The notes under the pieces: generated by a model
What the model saw: the letters and a program-made list of their open reading frames with translations, nothing else
What the model was told of the DNA's origin: nothing
Databases searched by the model: none
Shown here: piece by piece, positions 12,455 through 32,197 of the stretch
Layout: each line of letters opens with the position of its first letter
Position numbering within the stretch: position 1 is the stretch's first letter
Source of the DNA: a virus
Virus record (IMG/VR): IMGVR_UViG_3300025872_000028
Location: 1 to 32,197 of that record
Length of the DNA: 32,197 bases
Reading direction: 5' to 3' (one strand)
Program-made: the position numbers and the translations under genes

Positions 12455-12932
12455 CGTATCCTCCAGAGGTGATCGGGCGCGTGATTCGCGTCTGCGCGGC
12501 CGGCCCGGTGGCTTGCGCGACGTTCGTGGCGGCATTGGCATCGTCGTCCTCATCGGCCATGATGCCGAGGATCGAGGCGATGCCGTATCGCCGACCGTAG
12601 GTGATCGCCGAGCCCATGCCGTGGGCATCGGGCTTGGTGATCGGGATGATCGCATCGGTGGCGATCCATTGGCCCGACTTGTGGATCAGGCGGGTGGTGA
12701 TGGTGACGGCCATCGGCCGAAAATTATCGTCCAGGCTGGCGATCGCCGAGCCTTGAACCACGGCGACGCCGTGCTTCGCCAGCACCGGCACCGCGGTTCC
12801 AAGGATGGCGTCGAGCGTCATATACCGGCTGCGGAACGCCGGGTTTCGGCCGTCCTTGCCGACGGCGGGCATATCGCGCTGGATTTGTGCCAGAGCGACG
12901 GCGATTTGATCGATCTCGTTTGATGTTTGCAT
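12441..12932 (-). CDS. erf: ERF-family single-strand annealing protein
   Basis: 163 aa from ATG 12932, which has GGAGG upstream and lies 16 bases downstream of a good -10 box. ERF hallmarks are clear: NEIDQIAVALAQIQRDMPAVGKD, then RYMTLDAILGTAVPVLAKHG (the Y-x-x-L-x-x-x... block), IHKSGQWIATDAIIPITK and GSAITYGRRYGIASILGI followed by acidic DEDDDAN. ERF proteins form rings on single-stranded DNA and anneal homologous strands, aiding circularisation or recombination-dependent replication. It is the first gene of the leftward operon, divergent from the XRE regulator, so it is probably early and repressible. Confidence 0.9.
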   Translation of the reverse strand: MQTSNEIDQIAVALAQIQRDMPAVGKDGRNPAFRSRYMTLDAILGTAVPVLAKHGVAVVQGSAIASLDDNFRPMAVTITTRLIHKSGQWIATDAIIPITKPDAHGMGSAITYGRRYGIASILGIMADEDDDANAATNVAQATGPAAQTRITRPITSGGYDGNR

Positions 12933-12947
12933 CGTTCCTCCATGCCC

Positions 12948-12976
12948 AATATAGCATCCGGTGCGATATCTGGCAA
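12948..12976 (-). promoter_or_regulatory. Leftward sigma-70-type promoter for the erf operon
   Basis: Read on the minus strand: TTGCCA (complement of 12971-12976), a 17-base spacer, then TATATT (complement of 12948-12953) preceded by TGC, giving an extended -10. The erf ATG is 16 bases beyond the -10. One copy of the GGTGCGATAT repeat lies in the spacer, where a bound repressor would block RNA polymerase. Confidence 0.8.
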
Positions 12977-12998
12977 GAATCATCCTACGGTGCGATAT
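12960..12998 (+). promoter_or_regulatory. Two direct operator-like repeats, GGTGCGATAT
   Basis: GGTGCGATAT occurs at 12960-12969 and 12989-12998, 29 bases apart, each preceded within a few bases by CATCC. The first copy is inside the spacer of the leftward promoter, and the second overlaps the -10 of the rightward promoter. This is the expected place for the binding sites of the XRE regulator that starts at 13008. Binding is inferred from position. Confidence 0.6.
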
Positions 12999-13007
12999 AC
13001 TCCCGGC
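12996..13007 (+). promoter_or_regulatory. Rightward promoter -10, leaderless spacing, for the XRE-sigma operon
   Basis: TATACT (12996-13001) is followed by exactly six bases and the ATG at 13008. Transcription would begin at or beside the A of the start codon, giving a leaderless mRNA. No SD-like sequence stands at a useful distance in front of this ATG. A -35 is weak (TGGCAA at 12971-12976 has a 19-base spacer, and is shared with the leftward -35 on the other strand). Confidence 0.6.
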
Positions 13008-13205
13008 ATGATTCGAGGCATCACACAAGAGGAAATCGCTCGGCGCATGGGATCGCACCAGAGCAACGTGAGTTCGTGGCTCTCCGGTCGGCGCATTCCG
13101 ACCAGGCGAAACCTTGTCCTGCTGGCCGAGGCGATGGAGACGACGCCCGAGAACCTCGCGGCTATCCTCTATCGCAAGCATATGGAGCGGCTCGGGCAAC
13201 CTTGA
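13008..13205 (+). CDS. XRE-family helix-turn-helix regulator (Cro-like)
   Basis: 65 aa. The product is essentially one DNA-binding domain: ITQEEIARRMGSHQSNVSSW is a classic helix-turn-helix (residues about 5-25), followed by LSGRRIPTRRNLVLLAEAM and a last helix TPENLAAILYRK. There is no oligomerisation or cleavage domain, so it resembles Cro rather than a LexA-like CI repressor. It lies against a divergent promoter region with two GGTGCGATAT repeats, which probably are its operators, controlling the erf operon and its own operon. The sigma factor gene starts inside its stop codon (TTGA), so the two are coupled. An upstream in-frame ATG at 12927 would lie across the promoter and is rejected. 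Confidence 0.85.
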   Translation: MIRGITQEEIARRMGSHQSNVSSWLSGRRIPTRRNLVLLAEAMETTPENLAAILYRKHMERLGQP

Positions 13206-14011
13206 AACCGACGGAGGCCCGCGTTCGCGGCGTGGCGACGCGGCTCCGTGCTCGGCATTATCAGGGCATCACCCGCGAGGAGGATCGTCTGCTGGTCGAG
13301 GCGTACCAGATGGGCATCGGGCGCGATCTCGCCATCGGAGCTCTCCTCGAGGCGCACAAGGGCCTTGGAATGGCGATCGCGAAACGGTATGCCCGGCCAG
13401 ATCAGATGGAGGACTGCCTGCTCGAAGCCGAGCTCGGGATCGCCGCCGCGGCCGAGCGGTTCGATCTCTCCCGGAACATCAAGTTCGCCACCTACGCCAC
13501 ATACCAGATCGTCAACCGCGTGAGGCGGTATTGCGTGGCGAACAACTGGGGAATCCGCGTCCCCGAATACGCCGCGTACAGGACGTTCCGCGTCCTGCGG
13601 ATGCTCAAGGCCGATCCCGATGCGACGGACGCCCAGATCGCCGAATCCCTCGATCTGACCATCCCGGCGGTCGAGGATTCGCGGCGCATCATCAAGACCG
13701 AGATGATCAGCCTGGACGATACCTACAATCCCGGCGGCATCGCGCCGGCCGATTACCTCGAGGACGAGACGCTCGACCTGCTCGGTGGAATGATCGCCGA
13801 GCACGAATCCAAGGCGATCGCCGCGGCCATCAAACGGCTTCGGCCGACCCACCAGCGGGCGATAATGCTTCGCTTCGGATTCGATGGGGATGATCCGCGA
13901 ACATACGAGCAAATGGCCGAGCTGCGCGGAGTCTCGCGCCAGGCGGCTTGCGACGCGGTGCTTCGTGCACTCGAGCGTCTGCGGAAGGAGCTTACCGATG
14001 AAGCACCATGA
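13202..14011 (+). CDS. RNA polymerase sigma factor, sigma-70 family
   Basis: 269 aa from TTG 13202 (TTGA overlap with the XRE stop). The start is uncertain: a GTG at 13232 is possible. Region 2 is seen at residues about 45-115, with DQMEDCLLEAELGIAAAAER, then FDLSRNIKFATYATYQIVNR, which matches the DxxxEGxxGLxxAxxxFD...FxTYAxxxI signature of core binding and -10 melting. Region 3 covers about 130-172. Region 4 (about 205-263) ends with the HTH TYEQMAELRGVSRQAACDAV that reads -35 sequences. The full domain set separates it from ECF factors. It probably directs host polymerase to phage promoters, with the late TGGGATAATC sites as candidates. Sigma factors are unusual in a phage this small. Confidence 0.88.
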   Translation: MKPTEARVRGVATRLRARHYQGITREEDRLLVEAYQMGIGRDLAIGALLEAHKGLGMAIAKRYARPDQMEDCLLEAELGIAAAAERFDLSRNIKFATYATYQIVNRVRRYCVANNWGIRVPEYAAYRTFRVLRMLKADPDATDAQIAESLDLTIPAVEDSRRIIKTEMISLDDTYNPGGIAPADYLEDETLDLLGGMIAEHESKAIAAAIKRLRPTHQRAIMLRFGFDGDDPRTYEQMAELRGVSRQAACDAVLRALERLRKELTDEAP

Positions 14012-14366
14012 GGACATGGCCCAGATCGCGTTGATCCATTGGGTGCGGACGATGGCACACAGATATCCGCTCCTCGAGCTCGTCTACCACACGCCCAACG
14101 GTGGATACCGCGACCCGCGGACCGCGGCGAAGTTCCGCGCCCTCGGCGTCAAGGCGGGCATCTGGGATATCTTCGTTCCACTACCGGCTCCGGGCCTCTG
14201 GGTGGAGATGAAGGCCGGGAAGAACCGGCTCACGCCGGACCAGGCGAAGTGGCGGGATCGCTTGGAACCGTTTGGCTACCGCTTCGAAGTGGCGTATGAT
14301 TGGCCCACGGCCGCTCGTGCCATCGCCGAGCATATCGGCATCCCGGAGGACGAGCGACCGATCTAG
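13998..14366 (+). CDS. VRR-NUC domain nuclease
   Basis: 122 aa, ATG 13998 overlapping the sigma gene by 14 bases, with GGAG upstream. The whole protein is one VRR-NUC domain: YHTPNGGYRDPRTAAKFRAL, then GVKAGIWDIFVPLPAPGLWVEMKAGKNRLTPDQAKW. The G-(I/V)-x-D...E-x-K core (Asp in GIWDIF, then E and K in VEMKAG) and the downstream Gln are the metal-dependent PD-(D/E)XK nuclease residues. Stand-alone VRR-NUC proteins are frequent in phages next to replication genes and are thought to act on branched DNA such as Holliday junctions. It lies just before the primase and helicase. Its true substrate is unknown. Confidence 0.88.
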   Translation: MKHHEDMAQIALIHWVRTMAHRYPLLELVYHTPNGGYRDPRTAAKFRALGVKAGIWDIFVPLPAPGLWVEMKAGKNRLTPDQAKWRDRLEPFGYRFEVAYDWPTAARAIAEHIGIPEDERPI

Positions 14367-14389
14367 GATCGCTTGGAGACAATTGCAAA

Positions 14390-15301
14390 ATGGATTTCGA
14401 TCGCAAGGATGCCGAGAGGCATCTGCACTTTTTGTTCGACCGCTACCACGACGGTTGGGTCGAATTCCGCGGGCTCCGCAAGCCCGCCAATCCGTTCCGC
14501 ACCTCGGTCCGGCTGAACGCATTGTTCGGTGGTATCGACCTGGTGTTCGCCGAGCTCCAGACATGGCTCGACCACGGCGCGGACATCTACCTCGGCGTCC
14601 TTCCACGCGAGGTTTCGCATCTGGCATCGGGCAAGGTGGGCGAAGAGTACATCGCCCAGATGGGCGTCCTCTGGACCGATCTCGATCGCAAGGTGCCGGG
14701 CGCATCGCTCGAGCAGCTGGCCCGGTGCGATCTGGTGGTGGACTCTGGCAACGGCTGGCACGGCTACTCGTCCGCTCCGACCATCTTCGAGGCCGATACC
14801 CGCGAGCGGCGCAAGATGGCGAAAAAGGCCCTCCGATCCTATGCCGATCGCATCACGCCAGGAACCGATAATGTTTCCGACCTCACGCGCATCCTTCGAC
14901 TCGCCGGGACCTGGAACTTCAAGGACCCGGCCAACCCGAAGCCGGTCCGGATCGTCGAGGTTCAGGCGAAGCCGCGGCCGGCGGTGATTGCCAAGGCCAC
15001 GGCCTCGAGCGTGGCGAACCCGCCGGACTGGACCGAAGAGGAAGAGGCAACCTACCGCAGGATTCGCGGGCTTGATTCCGTGCTCAGCACCGCTGGTCGG
15101 TATCGGGAGCGGGACGAGCCGTGGCCCGACGGCTCCGCGCTCGAGGACCGCTATTCGTGGGTCATCCGCATCCTTCAGCGTATGATGGCCCGCGGCGACT
15201 CGAAGGCATCGATCCTCGAGTTCGCGGCTTTGGAAGGAATTAGCAAGGCCGAGGTGCAATCGGCCCGTCTAGCCCTGGAGGAATCGGATGCCAATCTCTG
15301 A
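14390..15301 (+). CDS. Archaeo-eukaryotic-type primase (RepB/primase-polymerase-like)
   Basis: 303 aa from ATG 14390, with TTGGAGA upstream. The catalytic core of AEP primases is visible: an acidic pair in LWTDLDRK (Asp97, Asp99), SGNGWHGY with His124 (like the SxH motif), and DLTRILRLAGTWNFKDP (about 164-180), which corresponds to the D-x-x-R-x-x-R-x-P/G-G-T-x-N-x-K block of phage and plasmid RepB-like primases. The C-terminal 100 residues form a helical domain of unknown use. It overlaps the helicase gene by 14 bases, so the pair forms a replication module that starts strands and unwinds DNA. A full DNA polymerase is not encoded, so the host replisome is presumably used. Confidence 0.8.
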   Translation: MDFDRKDAERHLHFLFDRYHDGWVEFRGLRKPANPFRTSVRLNALFGGIDLVFAELQTWLDHGADIYLGVLPREVSHLASGKVGEEYIAQMGVLWTDLDRKVPGASLEQLARCDLVVDSGNGWHGYSSAPTIFEADTRERRKMAKKALRSYADRITPGTDNVSDLTRILRLAGTWNFKDPANPKPVRIVEVQAKPRPAVIAKATASSVANPPDWTEEEEATYRRIRGLDSVLSTAGRYRERDEPWPDGSALEDRYSWVIRILQRMMARGDSKASILEFAALEGISKAEVQSARLALEESDANL

Positions 15302-16631
15302 GGAGGAGTTCTACAGTCTCCTCCACGACCACGCGAAGGAGCATACCGGCGCGGACGCGCCGCGGATCGAAGGTGGCCAATGGGCCGCGCTGTTCGAGCG
15401 TCACCCGGAAGGTGGCGGGCCATTCGGCGGGCGCGACAATGCGCTGGTGAAGCTTCTCGGCTTCCTGCGGGCGAAGTCCTTCCCGTATCAGGTCGCCCTT
15501 GGGATCGCCGAATGGTGGGACGCGAAATACGTCGATCCTCCGCTCGGGCCGGTGGCGATTCGAGACAAGATGTCCCGCGGTTGGGTCGAATGGATGGCCG
15601 GCGGTATACCGGACGATCGGCCGGATTCGGTCGGCCAGACCGGCGGGAACCTGCTCGAGTTCATCGGGCTGGATCGCCTGGCCGAGCTGGCCGCGGCCGC
15701 GAGCGACACGGAATGGATCGTCGACAACCTGATCATCTCAGGTGGAATCCATTTCGTGACGGCCCCGCCGGGTGGCGGGAAAACATGGGTGGCGGTCGAT
15801 CTGCTCCGCGCTTGCCTCACCGGAACCAAATGGCTGGTGGACCATCAGGCACGGCGTATAGCATCCCTCTATATAAACGAGGAGATGTCTCCCGGGACTT
15901 TTTTCGACCGTCTTTCACGGCTCGGAGTGCCATCCGAAGGGCTCTCGATCCTTCAACGCTCGGGCGTCCGGTTGGATTCGCCGGGCGATCTGGACCAGAT
16001 CATCGCCCATATCAAGGCCAACGGCATCAGGCTGGTGATCGTCGATACCTTCGTCCGCGTCCACCGACTGGACGAGAACTCCAACGTGGAGATGGCCTCC
16101 CTGTATCAGAGGCTGAAGGCCATGAGCGAGGCGGGCGCGGCGGTGGTATGCCTCCACCACCATCGCAAGTCCGCGGCCGGCGGTGGCCCGGTCGAGCACG
16201 AGGCGATGCGCGGTGCGGGCGAGATCGCGGCCCAGGCCGATTTGATCGCGTCGATCGACAAGCGGGACGGCGTCTACCGGTTCCACGTCACGAAACATCG
16301 GCACCTTGAAGAAGGTGCCGTTCCGGACGTTGGATTCGGAATCGAGACGTTAGACGATAACACGGTCAGACTCTGCCATTCGGAATTGCCCGATACGGCC
16401 TCCACGTTGCCCGTACAGGGGCGCAAGGCCAAAGATGGTACTCCTAGCCCATCCGACCGAATTCTAGCCGTCCTGAGCGAAAATCCGGGCATCGGGCTGA
16501 ACAAGGTCCAGAACCTTGCGAGGGTCAAGCGGGAGACGTGCCAGGCGGTTTTGGCGGAGCTCGAGGCCGACGGTCTGATCGAATCGGTGACCAAGGACAA
16601 GTGGCCGATCTGGTTCGTGGCGGGAGCGTAG
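15288..16631 (+). CDS. RepA-like replicative helicase (AAA_25, DnaB-type RecA fold)
   Basis: 447 aa, ATG 15288 with GGAGG upstream. The N-terminal 125 residues are a primase-C-like helical domain (KLLGFLRAKSFPYQVALGIAEWW). A RecA-type ATPase follows: Walker A APPGGGKTW (159-167), a motif LYINEEM (catalytic Glu, about 198-199), Walker B LVIVDTF (249-255) and CLHHHRK (288-294), which resembles the RepA/AAA_25 sensor. The C-terminal 60 residues (about 385-445) form a winged helix, NPGIGLNKVQNLARVKRETC. The family forms hexameric rings that unwind DNA at replication forks. It is the last gene before a structured noncoding region that may be the origin. Confidence 0.85.
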   Translation: MPISEEEFYSLLHDHAKEHTGADAPRIEGGQWAALFERHPEGGGPFGGRDNALVKLLGFLRAKSFPYQVALGIAEWWDAKYVDPPLGPVAIRDKMSRGWVEWMAGGIPDDRPDSVGQTGGNLLEFIGLDRLAELAAAASDTEWIVDNLIISGGIHFVTAPPGGGKTWVAVDLLRACLTGTKWLVDHQARRIASLYINEEMSPGTFFDRLSRLGVPSEGLSILQRSGVRLDSPGDLDQIIAHIKANGIRLVIVDTFVRVHRLDENSNVEMASLYQRLKAMSEAGAAVVCLHHHRKSAAGGGPVEHEAMRGAGEIAAQADLIASIDKRDGVYRFHVTKHRHLEEGAVPDVGFGIETLDDNTVRLCHSELPDTASTLPVQGRKAKDGTPSPSDRILAVLSENPGIGLNKVQNLARVKRETCQAVLAELEADGLIESVTKDKWPIWFVAGA

Positions 16632-16782
16632 GTGGTTCCCGACCCTTAGCCCCCTACGGGGGCTTTAGGTTGGAACCAGTCTGGGAACCACCTTTTGGTT
16701 TCCCCCAGACCCCCTTCCACCTTAGGGCCGGCAAGGTTCCGCGCTACGCTTCGCGGCGCAGAACCAAGCCGGCCGACCTAAG
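16631..16782 (+). other. Highly structured noncoding region (candidate origin, ncRNA or attenuator)
   Basis: Directly after the helicase stop several stems follow without a gene. GGTGGTTCCC (16631-16640) pairs perfectly with GGGAACCACC (16683-16692), enclosing the hairpin AGCCCCC-tac-GGGGGCT (16648-16664). GTCTGGG (16679-16685) can instead pair with CCCAGAC (16704-16710), excluding the first pairing. A third, long stem joins CTTAGG-GCCGGC-AA-GGTTC (16721-16739) to GAACC-AA-GCCGGC-CGA-CCTAAG (16761-16782), with an inner CCGCG/CGCGG. No T-run follows any stem closely. Such overlapping alternatives suit a replication origin or a folded regulatory RNA. Confidence 0.65.
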
Positions 16783-16809
16783 TGGTTTGATGGTTATTCG
16801 TGCGGGATA

Positions 16810-16839
16810 TTGACGCACCGATATAGCACCGTGTAGAAT
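16810..16839 (+). promoter_or_regulatory. Sigma-70-type promoter for the ssDNA-binding/terminase operon
   Basis: TTGACG (16810-16815), an 18-base spacer and TAGAAT (16834-16839) preceded by TG. The -35 matches the consensus at five of six positions. The next gene starts about 50 bases past the expected transcription start, leaving a folded 5' leader. Confidence 0.75.
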
Positions 16840-16844
16840 GCCCT

Positions 16845-16882
16845 GCCGGACACTCCGGCGATAACGCAGCCGGATGTCCGGC
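16845..16882 (+). promoter_or_regulatory. Twin hairpin 5' leader (GCCGGA/TCCGGC twice)
   Basis: GCCGGA-CAC-TCCGGC (16845-16859) and GCCGGA-TG-TCCGGC (16869-16882) are near-identical inverted repeats 24 bases apart, just before the SD of the next gene. Because the arms are the same, the outer arms can also pair with each other. They could stabilise the transcript, bind a dimeric regulator, or control access to the ribosome binding site. An ATG at 16874 lies inside the second hairpin and is not the preferred start. Confidence 0.55.
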
Positions 16883-16894
16883 GAAGGAAAAAAC

Positions 16895-17380
16895 ATGAGC
16901 TTTTTCGCGAAACACGCAAGCTTCAGCGGCGGGTCGTACCCGGTGGCCGATGCTGGTGCGTACAAGTGCACGTTGATCGATGTCGAGCAGACGGACCGGC
17001 CCAGCTTCGAGGATCGGGACCGCCTGGAGCCCAACTTCCGCTGGATTTTCGAGACGGTCGAGGTCGGAGACGAAGAGGGCCGGCCGTTTCGGTTCACCCA
17101 GTTCACGAAGACGGCCTACGGCTACGATGCCGCCAAGCTGACCAAGCTGCTCGATGGAATGCTCGGACGGCGTCTCACCCCGCAGGAATTCGCCGGGCTG
17201 GACCTCGACGAGCTCAAGGCCGCGTCCTGGTCGGTCACCGTTGACACGGTAATGTCCGCGAAGGGACGCGAGGTGAACACCATCCAGAGCGTCAAGCCGT
17301 GGAAGGCACCGGTCCGCAAGCCGCTCCGCAAGCCGGTGGTCGACGACACCGATGGCATCGAGGACCCGTTCGCCGAATGA
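16895..17380 (+). CDS. Putative single-stranded DNA-binding protein (DUF669/SSB-like)
   Basis: 161 aa from ATG 16895, with AAGGA upstream. An in-frame ATG at 16874 would add seven residues but lies in a hairpin. The core looks like an OB-type fold: PVADAGAYKCTLIDVEQTDR, LEPNFRWIFETVEVGDEEGR, PFRFTQFTKTAYGYDAAKLT, then a helical part, then WSVTVDTVMSAKGREVNTIQ. The last 20 residues are acidic (DDTDGIEDPFAE), as in SSB tails that recruit partner proteins. Phage genes with this pattern are usually annotated as ssDNA-binding. It heads the operon next to the replication module. It has no catalytic motif, and direct homology is not proven here. Confidence 0.6.
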   Translation: MSFFAKHASFSGGSYPVADAGAYKCTLIDVEQTDRPSFEDRDRLEPNFRWIFETVEVGDEEGRPFRFTQFTKTAYGYDAAKLTKLLDGMLGRRLTPQEFAGLDLDELKAASWSVTVDTVMSAKGREVNTIQSVKPWKAPVRKPLRKPVVDDTDGIEDPFAE

Positions 17381-17631
17381 CTGAAGAAGAATGGGATCGG
17401 AAATACAACGAAACGGATAATGGGCGACTGAGACTCACTCCTGAAGAAAAGGCTCGTCAAGACCGTCGTGCAGCTCATGCAACCACGACGCTCGAAAACT
17501 TGATTGATTTCTCTTCGGTTGATGTCGAAGACCCTCATGCCGGACGAACAGATCAAATCTTGATGATCATCGCGAATCATCTCGGTGATCTGAACGAAAC
17601 CTTGAAAGAAATCAGCGCGAAGCTGAAATGA
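17377..17631 (+). CDS. Small acidic protein of unknown function
   Basis: 84 aa, ATG in an ATGA overlap with the SSB-like gene. The N-terminal part is polar and basic/acidic mixed (MTEEEWDRKYNETDNGRLRL), followed by PEEKARQDRRAAHATTTLENL and a C-terminal amphipathic helix (ILMIIANHLGDLNETLKEISAKL). No motif is recognised. The base composition is visibly more AT-rich than its neighbours (17400-17630), suggesting a separate origin. The C-terminal helix could mediate oligomerisation. It is followed by a GC-rich hairpin. Confidence 0.7.
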   Translation: MTEEEWDRKYNETDNGRLRLTPEEKARQDRRAAHATTTLENLIDFSSVDVEDPHAGRTDQILMIIANHLGDLNETLKEISAKLK

Positions 17632-17638
17632 TGACCCG

Positions 17639-17664
17639 CCGGCCCGGCCAACCAGCCGGGCCGG
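17639..17664 (+). other. GC-rich intergenic hairpin (GGCCCGG family, copy 1)
   Basis: CCGGCCCGGC (17639-17648) pairs perfectly with GCCGGGCCGG (17655-17664) around a 6-base loop. TTTACTTT follows, which is a poor terminator tail. Similar GGCCCGG/CCGGGCC hairpins stand at 21017 and 21489. It may act as a weak terminator or protect the upstream mRNA end. Confidence 0.7.
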
Positions 17665-17681
17665 TTTACTTTGGAGACAAG

Positions 17682-17915
17682 ATGGAACGAACCAAAACCC
17701 AGATCGAGGAAAGCATCGAAACCTTTCGGCGCAAGACCGAGGAGATGCAGACCGCGAACCGCATCGTCACCGGCCTCCAGCGGTGGCTCGATACCGGCAA
17801 CGAAGCCTACCTGAAGAACATCATCCTCCACGCCGCGTGGCTCTACACCCGCGACGACACCAAGGCGCAGGACACCGTGAAGGCACTCGACAAGATCAAG
17901 GACATGAGCCGGTGA
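17682..17915 (+). CDS. Small helical protein of unknown function
   Basis: 77 aa from ATG 17682, with TTGGAGA upstream. An ATG at 17628 is in frame but would read through the hairpin at 17639-17664. The N-terminal half is a charged helix (RTKTQIEESIETFRRKTEEM) that could form a coiled coil. It is followed by LQRWLDTGNEAYLKNIILHA and AWLYTRDDTKAQDTVKALDK. No family is recognised and there is no membrane segment. It overlaps the next gene by four bases. Confidence 0.7.
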   Translation: MERTKTQIEESIETFRRKTEEMQTANRIVTGLQRWLDTGNEAYLKNIILHAAWLYTRDDTKAQDTVKALDKIKDMSR

Positions 17916-18190
17916 TCATCGAAGGCAACCTCACCGGTCCGCAAGCTCTCAAAGCTCTGATCGAGGGCCAAGCGATACGGTGCAAGTGGTGGACCACCAT
18001 CAACCGCATCGAGCGTGTATGGGACCAGAACCTCGAGCAATACGTTGTCCAGGCGCGAGGCACCGACATCTTCACCGCGGACTGCCAACAGACCGGCGCA
18101 CTCTGGCTGGTCGAGCTCCTCGCCGAATCCGAATCCCAATGGGAGGTTTGGTCCAACAACCTCGAGGAGGCGTACCAAGCGGCCCAATGA
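17912..18190 (+). CDS. Unknown protein with a short GPQALKALIEGQAIRCKWW start, possible DUF-type early protein
   Basis: 92 aa, GTG at 17912 in a GTGA overlap. The beginning, LTGPQALKALIEGQAIRCKW, recalls small phage proteins in which a helix is followed by a strand and a conserved Trp (tfsEALxxLxxGkxIxrxxW). Later parts are IERVWDQNLEQYVVQARGTD and two Trp-rich strands (GALWLVELLAESESQWEVW). The acidic composition and small size would suit an inhibitor or DNA mimic, but nothing in the sequence shows that directly. It is tightly coupled to both neighbours. Confidence 0.65.
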   Translation: MIIEGNLTGPQALKALIEGQAIRCKWWTTINRIERVWDQNLEQYVVQARGTDIFTADCQQTGALWLVELLAESESQWEVWSNNLEEAYQAAQ

Positions 18191-18804
18191 GCACTGGCAG
18201 ACCCGTCGCAAAGTGGACATCGAGGCGATGCACCGTCTGCAAGGAGCTCAAGCCGCGAAGCAGCTTCGAGATCGCGCGTGCCGAATCGAAAACAGGGAAG
18301 ACGACGCTCGGAAAATGCGCGGAATGCCGGCGGCGCATCGACCTCTCCCGCAAGTTCGAGCAATACCACAACGATCCCGAATACAAAGCCCGCCAGCTCG
18401 AGCGAAATCGGATCAAGGCCTACCACACATACAACGCGGACCAGCGGGCCAAGAACTGCTATTACCAGGGACGCTGGCAATGGATCGAACGGCGCATGGC
18501 GCGAATCACATGGTGGGACGATCAACCCATAATCATCTGCGTCAAGCCGAGCGGACGGCATATCCGATCGGATGAAAAGCATACCGAGCGAACCGGCATG
18601 GAGCTGGCGATCGTCCGAGATCGAGCACCAGTGAACCTACCACTCGGCTGGAGGCCGATCCTGCGGGCCAAAGGACCGATAATAACCAAGCACCCGTCCT
18701 GCCCGACCGAATGGGAATGGATGGAATTCGCGGTCGAGAAGAGGTATCCAAAGTGGAGACAAAAGGCAAACGAGGACGCTGGACAAAGCGAACACCAGCC
18801 GTAG
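18187..18804 (+). CDS. Zinc-finger protein of unknown function
   Basis: 205 aa, ATG in an ATGA overlap. The N-terminal region carries two CxxC knuckles (CTVC and CAEC, about residues 14-17 and 40-43), separated by KELKPRSSFEIARAESKTGK. This resembles the zinc-binding part of recombination endonuclease VII/HNH-type proteins. A basic helical stretch (RKFEQYHNDPEYKARQLERN) follows. The C-terminal 90 residues, with Trp-rich TEWEWMEFAVEKRYPKWR, are not recognised. No clear HNH catalytic triad is seen, so nuclease activity cannot be claimed. It probably binds DNA or RNA. It overlaps the proposed terS start by 52 bases. Confidence 0.6.
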   Translation: MSTGRPVAKWTSRRCTVCKELKPRSSFEIARAESKTGKTTLGKCAECRRRIDLSRKFEQYHNDPEYKARQLERNRIKAYHTYNADQRAKNCYYQGRWQWIERRMARITWWDDQPIIICVKPSGRHIRSDEKHTERTGMELAIVRDRAPVNLPLGWRPILRAKGPIITKHPSCPTEWEWMEFAVEKRYPKWRQKANEDAGQSEHQP

Positions 18805-19133
18805 AAGAAGGCATCCTGCAAGCCCTGCGGGACGGATGCACCCAAAAGGACGCGGCCGAATCCAACGGCGTGACCTGGGACACACTCAACCGATGGCGCA
18901 TCGAGGATGAGGAATTCCGCAAGGCCGTATCGCGCGCGGAGGCCGAAGTAGCCCGCGCCATGGCCGCGAGGCTCCGCGTGGAGGCCACGAAGGCGGACGG
19001 CGACTGGCGGGCCGCGGAGTCATGGCTGAAGCGACGACGCCGGGAAGACTGGTCCGAGCGGCAGGAGGTCACGGGCGCGGCCGGCGGTGGCATCGAGGTC
19101 GTGGTCCGCTTCGCGGACGAGGAACAGCCGTGA
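18753..19133 (+). CDS. terS: Terminase small subunit
   Basis: 126 aa from GTG 18753, which has AGAGG about 8 bases upstream. ATGs at 18711 and 18717 would add up to 14 residues. The N terminus is basic (ETKGKRGRWTKRTPAVEE), followed by a helix-turn-helix, LRDGCTQKDAAESNGVTWDTLNRW, typical for recognition of packaging sites. A helical oligomerisation region follows (FRKAVSRAEAEVARAMAARL, then WRAAESWLKRRRREDWSER), and the tail is acidic. The ...AAEWxLKRRxPExWs-type block near the end is frequent in TerS. The large subunit lies about 100 bases downstream, with one tiny membrane-protein gene between. Confidence 0.8.
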   Translation: METKGKRGRWTKRTPAVEEGILQALRDGCTQKDAAESNGVTWDTLNRWRIEDEEFRKAVSRAEAEVARAMAARLRVEATKADGDWRAAESWLKRRRREDWSERQEVTGAAGGGIEVVVRFADEEQP

Positions 19134-19252
19134 ACCTGATCCATTGGCTCTGCTGGATCGGCGTTGGCATCGTCCTGTTCTGCATCCTCACCGTGATCAT
19201 CTTCCTCACCATCGACGATGCCCAGCGGAGGATCGATGCCAGAGAGGATTGA
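19130..19252 (+). CDS. 40-aa single-pass membrane protein between the terminase genes
   Basis: 40 aa, GTG at 19130 in a GTGA overlap with terS. It overlaps terL by 17 bases, so it belongs to the packaging operon. The sequence is nearly one transmembrane helix (WLCWIGVGIVLFCILTVIIF), followed by a charged tail LTIDDAQRRIDARED that would face the cytoplasm if the N terminus is outside. It holds two Cys. A function cannot be assigned. Possible roles are a small holin or antiholin, a membrane effector, or an anchor. Tight coupling on both sides and an uninterrupted hydrophobic run argue that it is a real gene. Confidence 0.65.
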   Translation: MNLIHWLCWIGVGIVLFCILTVIIFLTIDDAQRRIDARED

Positions 19253-20411
19253 GCTGGTCCTACCGCGCCCTCACGCGGCGCAGAAGGAGATCATGGCTGC
19301 GCCCGCCAGATACAACGTGGTCTCCTGCGGCCGGCGGTTCGGGAAGACCACCATGGGCGCGATCCTCATGGCCGAATCGCTTTTGAAGCACCGAAGGTCC
19401 TGCGGATGGTTCGCGCCGACGTACAGGCTCCTTGAGGAGGCCTACAACGACCAGCGCAAGATACTCCAGCCGATCATAAGCCGCGCGGTGGTGAGCCCGT
19501 TCCCGCGCATCGAGCTAATCACCGGATCGGCGATCGACTACTGGACCCTGGGGGAACCGGCCACGGTTGCCCGCGGACGCCGATACGCTTGGGTCGGCAT
19601 CGACGAAGCCGCGATGGCGGTCTACCTCGAGGAGGCGTGGACGCAGGCGATTCGGCCGACCCTCACCGACTACGCCGGTTCCGCATGGTTCTTCTCAACG
19701 CCAAAGGGCCACAATTACTTCAAGACGCTGTTCGACCAAGCCAAAACCGACGACGAATGGCGGAGCTGGACCATGCCGACGCTTGCCAACCCGTATATCC
19801 CGCCGGCCGAGGTCGAGGCCGCGGAGCGGAGCCTTCCGAGCATCGCCTTCCGGCAGGAGTACCTTGCCGAGTTCGTGGACGCCCAAGGCGCGAGGATGCG
19901 GCGCGAGTGGATTCGCACCGGGACCCCGCCGGCCGGCCTCGACGTGTACATCGGCGTCGACCTGGCGATCAGCACGAAGACCGACGCGGACTGGACCGCC
20001 GCGGTGGCGATCGGGCGCGACTCCGCGGGCACCATCTGGGTGCTCGACGCGGCGCGGATTCGCGCACCGTTCGACGGCGTCCTGCGCTTCGTCCAGGACA
20101 TGGCGGGCAAGTGGCGACCGAAGGCCATCGGCATCGAGCAGGTGCAATACCAAGCCGCGGTGATACAGGAGCTCCTGCGGACCACGCGGCTCCCGGTCCG
20201 CGGGATCAAGCCCGACAAGGACAAGGTGACCCGCTTCGGTCCGCTTGAGGCGCGGTACGAGCAGGGACTGGTGGTCCACGCGCCCGACCTGCCGTCCTGG
20301 TTCGCGGACGAGCTGCTGAGCTTCCCGATCGGGCGGCACGACGACTGCGTTGACGCCACAAGCTACGCTTGGGCGGCGATGGGCGCGACGCGGAGCTTCG
20401 CGGCCGTATGA
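19236..20411 (+). CDS. terL: Terminase large subunit (ATPase-nuclease)
   Basis: 391 aa from ATG 19236, with GGAGG 6 bases upstream. An in-frame ATG at 19218 lacks a good site. The ATPase shows a Walker A SCGRRFGKTT (30-39), a Walker B YAWVGIDEAA with Asp123 and Glu124, and the coupling motif FFSTPKG (152-158). The RNase H-like nuclease shows YIGVDLA (Asp242), AIGIEQ (Glu301) and RHDDCVDA (Asp369/370), all metal-binding positions. The protein powers DNA translocation into the procapsid at the portal and cuts concatemers. It is short for the family but has both domains complete. Confidence 0.95.
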   Translation: MPERIELVLPRPHAAQKEIMAAPARYNVVSCGRRFGKTTMGAILMAESLLKHRRSCGWFAPTYRLLEEAYNDQRKILQPIISRAVVSPFPRIELITGSAIDYWTLGEPATVARGRRYAWVGIDEAAMAVYLEEAWTQAIRPTLTDYAGSAWFFSTPKGHNYFKTLFDQAKTDDEWRSWTMPTLANPYIPPAEVEAAERSLPSIAFRQEYLAEFVDAQGARMRREWIRTGTPPAGLDVYIGVDLAISTKTDADWTAAVAIGRDSAGTIWVLDAARIRAPFDGVLRFVQDMAGKWRPKAIGIEQVQYQAAVIQELLRTTRLPVRGIKPDKDKVTRFGPLEARYEQGLVVHAPDLPSWFADELLSFPIGRHDDCVDATSYAWAAMGATRSFAAV

Positions 20412-31496: not shown

Positions 31497-32197
31497 ATGG
31501 CGAAACTGACGGTCAAAGCCGGCTCAACCAGCCGTCGCGAGTATGTCCTGATCCTCGACTCGACCAGCACGGCTGGTGCCGGGGATACTGGGCTCCTCTA
31601 CAACACCTCCGGCCTCAAAGCTTATTATGTGCGGCCTGGCGGGTCGGCCACGGCGATCACGCTTGCGACGCAGACCGTGACCGGCGCGTATTCGTCCGGC
31701 GGTTTCGTCGAGGTCGATGCAACCAATATGCCGGGCATCTACCGATTCGATGTCCCGGACGCGGTGTTCGCCGCCGGTGTTGACAAGGCCATCGTGATGT
31801 TGTCTGGCGCGACCGGCATGGCTCCGGTTGCGCTTGAGTACGATCTGGTGGCATACGATCCGTTGGATACGGTGCGCCTCGGCCTCACCGCGCTCCCCAA
31901 CGTGGCATCGGGATCGGCTGGTGCGATCATCACGAGCGGCACCGGTACGGCCCAGCTCTCGACCACGAGCGGCAACGTCACGGTTGGCACCAACAACGAC
32001 AAGACGGGCTACAGCCTGACGCAAGCATTCCCATCCAATTTCTCGAGCCTCGCCATTACGGCCGGCGGCGCGGTAACCGCCGGGACGGTCTCCGACAAGA
32101 CCGGATATTCGCTCACCCAAGCGTTCCCGACGAACTTCTCGAGCCTGGCGATTACGGCTGGCGGTGCTGTTACCGCTGGCACCGTTTCGGACAAAAC
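31497..32197 (+). CDS. Tail fibre / receptor-binding-type repeat protein, 5' part (continues at 1-1547)
   Basis: ATG 31497 lies one base after the preceding stop, so the genes are coupled. The N-terminal 115 residues form a compact beta domain: AKLTVKAGSTSRREYVLILD, then YYVRPGGSATAITLATQTVT, FVEVDATNMPGIYRFDVPD and PVALEYDLVAYDP. This domain precedes DKTGYSLT-type repeats in many environmental phage fibres and probably anchors the fibre. The first 96-bp repeat begins at 31977. Frame is kept across the circular join (position 32073 equals 3), giving 706 aa in total. Confidence 0.75.
   Translation, partial: MAKLTVKAGSTSRREYVLILDSTSTAGAGDTGLLYNTSGLKAYYVRPGGSATAITLATQTVTGAYSSGGFVEVDATNMPGIYRFDVPDAVFAAGVDKAIVMLSGATGMAPVALEYDLVAYDPLDTVRLGLTALPNVASGSAGAIITSGTGTAQLSTTSGNVTVGTNNDKTGYSLTQAFPSNFSSLAITAGGAVTAGTVSDKTGYSLTQAFPTNFSSLAITAGGAVTAGTVSDK
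31977..32072 (+). repeat. 96-bp tandem repeat in the fibre gene (unit 1)
   Basis: Encodes VTVGTNNDKTGYSLTQAFPS and NFSSLAITAGGA. It is the first of three consecutive units; the other two are at 3-98 (also 32073-32168) and 99-194. Confidence 0.85.
32071..32197. repeat. Terminal direct repeat (copy 2 of 2)
   Basis: Identical to bases 1-127. See the first copy. It supports a circular genome map of about 32,070 bp. Confidence 0.9.

Follow-up and report, generated by a model that had tools for sequence, protein, structure and literature searches.

The noncoding gap at 16632-16894, directly behind the helicase gene of this phage, probably combines its replication origin with the promoter that serves the next operon. 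An origin at this place had been guessed in the original prediction, and the guess gained support because a predicted RSF1010-type primase/helicase pair adjoins the gap and the layout of the gap is conserved together with these genes, and also because the relatives of the phage have inverted iterons and the C-tract motif of the gap recurs beside the replication genes of unrelated phages. From these observations we infer helicase binding, melting, priming and origin activity at the gap.

Gene order, proteins and folds of the gap

The window (the whole stretch of DNA that was analysed, an IMG/VR virus record of 32,197 bases) carries genes that all run rightward from ~13,000 to 20,400. They encode, in order, a small HTH-like protein, a sigma factor, a Holliday-junction resolvase, the primase and the helicase; the gap follows, and the order continues with an OB-fold protein and two small genes, then an HNH-type endonuclease, another small ORF and, 2.5 kb downstream of the gap, the large terminase. 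The phage-encoded sigma-70-like factor lies at 12887-14011, just 5' of the replication genes. The gene 3' of the gap most likely starts at the ATG at 16895, since its relatives begin with M(S/G)FF there, and the noncoding gap is therefore taken as ~16632-16894; the first ATG of the listed ORF, at 16874, sits within the second leader hairpin. No Rfam family scored above its gathering score in the window, and a tRNA/tmRNA scan found none. An identical 37-mer occurs at 1-37 and 32071-32107, inside a repetitive gene near both ends of the window, so a break of the contig at a repeat is probable, and the window may be almost a whole genome. The features of the gap and its flanking genes are as follows.

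14390-15301, plus strand: AEP primase, RepB'-like (AF2 model, Foldseek, PHROG)
15288-16631, plus strand: RepA-like hexameric helicase (PDB and AAA_25 matches)
16630-16640, plus strand: left iteron-like arm AGGTGGTTCCC (repeat analysis; counterpart in relatives)
16649-16663, plus strand: GC hairpin GCCCCCTACGGGGGC, enclosed by the arms
16672-16693, minus strand: two inverted iteron-like copies, GGAACCA and GGGAACCACCT
16679-16710, plus strand: alternative hairpin GTCTGGG (16679-16685) / CCCAGAC (16704-16710)
16683-16693: right arm GGGAACCACCT, in perfect 11-bp pairing with the left arm AGGTGGTTCCC
16693-16696, plus strand: short T-run TTTT, directly 3' of the right arm
16696-16718, plus strand: C-tract motif TGGTTTCCCCCAGACCCCCTTCC, between the iterons and long hairpin C
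16721-16782, plus strand: long hairpin C, 62 bases, with AA/AA loops at 16733-16734 and 16766-16767
16810-16839, plus strand: sigma-70-like promoter TTGACG-18-TAGAAT, 10/12 matches
16821-16831, minus strand: operator-like CGGTGCTATAT in the promoter spacer (exact pattern copies also at 12959 and 12988)
16845-16882, plus strand: twin GCCGGA/TCCGGC leader hairpins (16845-16859 and 16869-16882), 5' of the ribosome-binding site
16895-17380, plus strand: OB-fold, SSB/PriB-like protein (AF2 model, pLDDT 78)

The helicase assignment rests on matches to RSF1010 RepA (PDB 1g8y, E 3.5e-10) and to AAA_25 (E 1.5e-31). Its C-terminal ~75 residues resemble a winged helix in prediction (residues 337-433 weakly match MarR, 5eri, E 0.35), and such a tail is present in those relatives that were aligned to their ends (the L057 row is shortened). 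The AF2 model of the primase is of low confidence (pLDDT 62), and its two best Foldseek matches are RepB' structures (3h20, E 6e-6; 3h25, E 7e-4), while all later matches have E of 0.45 or more; the protein also matches a DNA polymerase/primase in PHROG (E 3e-6), while there was no phmmer or profile match to RepB' in PDB and no Pfam match. The gene 3' of the gap looks like an OB-fold SSB from its model, for which the top Foldseek matches are PriB/SSB (E 0.011-0.02) and the first VIA-align match is PrgE of pCF10 (Z 8.7, rmsd 4.6, 119 aligned).

The dense folds that had been described for the noncoding stretch after the helicase are all there, namely the perfect arms around a GC hairpin (11 bp long rather than 10), the 62-base stem with its AA/AA internal loop, the sigma-70-like promoter and the twin GCCGGA hairpins. 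The competing GTCTGGG/CCCAGAC arm is likewise present in the window, and its pairing and that of the arms are mutually exclusive. The stretch had also been said to hold no T-runs, which is wrong: the right arm is directly followed by TTTT, and a T-run stands at this place in most relatives. Folding of the gap is better than that of its own dinucleotide shuffles (z -5.4, 0/200), although its absolute fold energy is not unique in this GC-rich phage, where 47 of 640 sliding windows on both strands equal or exceed the plus strand of the gap. In both RNA and DNA folds of the gap, two separate hairpins are favoured. The GC-skew minimum that had been proposed as a check on the origin failed, as the cumulative skew of the window has no switch at the gap and a weak minimum at ~10-11 kb instead.

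Conservation in relatives and control of transcription

A scan with the terminase gave 37 loci, in which synteny was followed by tblastn of the window genes. The order primase, helicase, gap and OB-fold gene is kept in relatives down to ~35-60% helicase identity, and so is the layout of the gap, which in its 5' part has iteron-like arms flanking a hairpin or spacer, in most cases a T-run, and the C-tract, and in its 3' part a long hairpin, a promoter and hairpins 5' of the ribosome-binding site. The leader hairpins of the window thereby have counterparts in relatives. The exact C-tract motif was present in 19 of the 21 syntenic loci checked and absent from the other two (L035 and L037), in which two C6 tracts some bases apart are seen by eye.

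The iterons are mainly inverted 9-11-mers, with an exact direct tandem only in some relatives (for example two copies of GGGAAACGGTC in L019). Inverted iterons are clear in L030, L035, L036, L059 and L113: L030 reads AACTGGTTCC AACCGGTTCC in its left arm and GGAACCAGTT C GGAACCGGTT in its right arm, and L036 has two copies of AACCGGTATC plus inverses. Compared with shuffles, 9-mers occur in 5 copies in L030 (reached in 1/100 shuffles), 7 in L035 (0/100), 5 in L036 (2/100), 4 in L059 (2/100) and 4 in L113 (4/100), whereas iterons were not clearly above shuffles in the window (41/100), L025 (16/100), L003, L019 and L024. A tandem duplication of TTTGGTTTCCCCCAG is found in the gap of the subgroup L053, L059, L065 and L068.

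The covariation that had been suggested as a check is modestly positive. On one side, L003 has a C and a G inserted at facing places of hairpin C relative to the window, 3 of 50 predicted pairs are changed on both sides in a six-row alignment, and hairpin C shows a UA to AU double change (alignment columns 141/167). On the other, many predicted pairs fail to hold across the two subgroups because of gaps or broken pairing, and the covariation term (+3.42) is not favourable; the support from covariation is therefore modest. The attenuator that had been offered as another reading is weakly supported, in that the GTCTGGG/CCCAGAC competition is not kept in the gap sequences of the other relative groups compared.

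The gap might also be nothing but transcription punctuation, in which the arms and T-run would terminate the helicase operon, a repressor would control the promoter and the leader hairpins would be protective. A T-run does follow the right arm in most relatives, and the promoter is conserved (in L003 as TTGACA-17-TACCAT). Moreover, the window has three exact copies of operator-like CGGTGCNATAT, two of them in the divergent early promoter region (12959 and 12988) and the third in the spacer of the gap promoter (16821); allowing one mismatch gives 6 matches in the window vs 1.6 expected. Both promoters may be under one repressor, for which the small protein at 13008 is a candidate. Punctuation nevertheless leaves the C-tract motif and hairpin C unexplained, as well as the position of the motif within opposite-strand replication-type ORFs in other phages, and the arm stem, with 11 bp and TTTT but a 42-nt loop, was not listed by the terminator scan. 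We consider this account improbable as the whole function of the gap; a terminator plus promoter can coexist with an origin at the same place.

The C-tract motif in unrelated phages

A narrow pattern of the motif matched 25 stretches in viral contigs and a single one in 257 Gb of bacterial genomes (L074). A broad pattern (TGGTTYCCCCC-RNA-CCCCCYTCC) matched 68 stretches in IMG/VR, and a decoy consisting of a single permutation of TGGTT matched none; the chance figure is ~1.5e-11 per position for uniform base composition. Together with the window and the bacterial contig L074, the 68 stretches make 70 loci, which flank similarity sorted into 29 unrelated clusters (L055, L060 and L062, which fit only the narrow pattern, are excluded from these). 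Between the C tracts a purine comes first in 27 of the 29 cluster representatives.

As a sequence fact, the position of the C-tract next to replication modules of phages is solid. Within 1.5 kb of the motif the commonest families (108 ORFs, comprising 107 with the window's own excluded and at most five per cluster, plus L058:2-685) were DnaB helicases, primase/helicases, DNA polymerase/primases, DnaC loaders and replication initiators. At 4 kb or more in the same loci (107 of 110 ORFs, three very long ones in L110, L118 and L106 being left out) they were methyltransferases, portals, integrases, ParB and head proteins, and DnaB, primase/helicase, DnaC and replication initiation were absent from the top 25 families of these far ORFs. 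In single scans of part of the near ORFs, a named replication gene was found in at least 12 of the 29 clusters (window, L125, L084, L069 [scanned as L054], L086, L118, L058, L082, L087, L108, L112 and L122). The singly scanned ORFs of the other 17 clusters included no named replicative helicase, primase, loader or initiator, and among these L106 had no more than an SF2-type DNA helicase. Four independent clusters have the motif 3' of the stop codon of a RepA-like AAA_25 helicase, at 65 bp in the window, 51 in L054, 132 in L087 and 352 in L112, and inverted repeats are seen by eye between helicase and motif in each of them (AACCGGGACA, GGCAACA and TTTGTGCA in the last three, respectively).

An excess of direct 8-mer repeats next to the motif was seen in 9 of 29 clusters, vs 4.9% of control pairs, and the window's own direct-repeat score is low; L074, L076 and L131 have clear iterons adjoining the motif by eye. 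Over the first three 50-bp bins on the TTCC side of the motif, AT content exceeds the locus mean by 9.4, 6.8 and 5.6 points in turn, whereas the other flank has no such enrichment.

Several further occurrences were noted. The L125 cluster (12 loci) is a second large phage group, with mostly a C6/C6 motif followed by a GGGGGTTAGACCCCC-like hairpin. In the small Acidiphilium plasmid pACRY07 (L078 3002-3023) the motif lies ~300 bp before an O-like/DnaD-like replication protein. A cultured phage, Aeromonas phage LAh10, carries it at 221677-221701. A microvirus (ssDNA phage, L128 2970-2991) has GGTTCCCCCCGAACCCCCCTCC outside an annotated gene, at a weak E-value; microvirus and Streptomyces phage matches, with E of 0.3 or more, were set aside as evidence. 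We found no paper on the C-tract motif in the openly accessible literature under core strings and phage origin terms.

The motif lies inside an opposite-strand ORF in many clusters and is intergenic in others, and motif-bearing ORFs also match DUF1376, DUF6291, DUF7833 and HTH_36, some of them below the curated cut-off. Conservation as a protein segment, an EGGxGET linker, would agree with the coding cases, which mostly read the purine strand as EGGxGET or EGGxGGT. It is very unlikely, given that no ORF overlaps the motif in the window, L125, L110, L086, L096, L106 and L120, that in L123, L105, L085 and L080 the longest open reading frame runs in a different frame or on the opposite strand, and that the ORF annotated in L076 also lies on the opposite strand. 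Even less credit goes to a packaging (cos/pac) or recombination site: the gap does hold inverted repeats and has the terminase 2.5 kb downstream, but across families the motif is linked to helicase/primase genes rather than to terminase, and the window's own ends fall in another gene.

The motif may act as a primase start, a site of helicase entry or a G-strand structure such as a quadruplex or triplex. The broader proposal, to which we give somewhat less than an even chance, is that the motif serves dsDNA phages and some plasmids as a general origin element, so far unrecognised. Such an element would work with unrelated initiators; it would therefore either be recognised by a conserved factor of the host replisome or act through a structure of its own (two G5 tracts with a 3-nt loop, and mirror symmetry), and beside the iterons it would set the point at which helicase entry or priming starts.

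Comparison with known origins and a proposed mechanism

In IncQ replication, as two papers describe it (PMC6925257; PMC4538821), RepC acts on iterons, RepA unwinds and RepB' primes at ssiA and ssiB. The phage resembles RSF1010 oriV in its RepA-type helicase, repeats, hairpins and TTTCCCCC element, and in a primase whose predicted fold is RepB'-like. It differs in that RSF1010 has a separate RepC, while none was seen adjacent in the phage and a winged-helix-like tail is fused to its helicase; in that IncQ iterons are direct repeats and those of the phage inverted 9-11-mers; in that RSF1010 has two ssi sites on opposite strands and the phage has TTTCCCCC once in 32 kb; and in that, unlike RSF1010 oriV, the phage gap is followed by an SSB-like gene.

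Within the origin reading, the C-tract could be a RepB'-type ssi primase start, with the phage using strand displacement like IncQ plasmids. The predicted primase fold matches RepB', and in an IncQ1 plasmid CTTTCCCCCTRCC stands before a hairpin once per strand, near the iterons; these two elements we infer to be ssiA and ssiB. ssiA is a 40-nt element with a hairpin, of which RepB' contacts the 5' tail and the first pair, according to PMC4434180. On the other hand, the single TTTCCCCC in 32 kb is about the number expected from base composition by estimate, IncQ2 plasmid L136 has no TTTCCCCC, and many motif-bearing phages have DnaB or other helicases instead of the RepA type; the full C-tract motif was not found in IncQ plasmids. 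On balance this special case is possible but rather unlikely.

The pRN1 origin, according to PMC4234260, is a stem-loop behind a gene whose product combines an AEP primase with an SF3 helicase and a winged helix. The phage is alike in having a stem-loop directly 3' of AEP primase, helicase and winged-helix functions, but these are separate proteins with a RepA-like AAA_25 helicase rather than one fused protein with an SF3 helicase, and there are iterons and a C-tract in place of a single 100-nt loop. Because of the outcome of these comparisons, we regard the gap as origin-like in the pRN1 position with RSF1010-like proteins, and the phage as a member of neither family. The PrimPol of phage NrS-1 recognises TTTGGTTA (PMC8718748). 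Here the likeness consists of repeats next to the primase gene and a TTTGGTT in common with the window; the one TTTGGTTA of NrS-1 sits in GGTTACACTTT repeats and is not in the gap, which reads TTTGGTTT. We rejected a link through TTTGGTTA, as the NrS-1 genome is without the C-tract motif.

For the origin reading of the gap we propose the following. The winged-helix tail of the helicase would bind the inverted iterons flanking the GC hairpin, perhaps together with the copies in hairpin C, whose stem again carries GGTTCC/GAACC, and the helicase would thereby load itself, a task that RepA and RepC share in RSF1010. Melting would run across the C-tract, here a putative conserved origin element also used by unrelated phages, and the exposed strands would fold into hairpins. 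The RepB'-like primase would then start a primer on or beside TTTCCCCC or hairpin C, and the SSB-like protein, made from the adjacent promoter, would coat the displaced strand. Hairpins as primase start sites, as the original prediction had it, are plausible since the primase model matches RepB', a user of ssi hairpins.

The helicase of this phage seems to have an origin-recognition domain of its own, which would be a more compact arrangement than the three proteins of the RSF1010 system. The origins of most phages are unknown, and a 23-base motif marking replication modules across unrelated phages would let a simple scan find many origins of uncultivated phages. Such a motif would also raise the question of which common factor or DNA structure serves such different replication systems.
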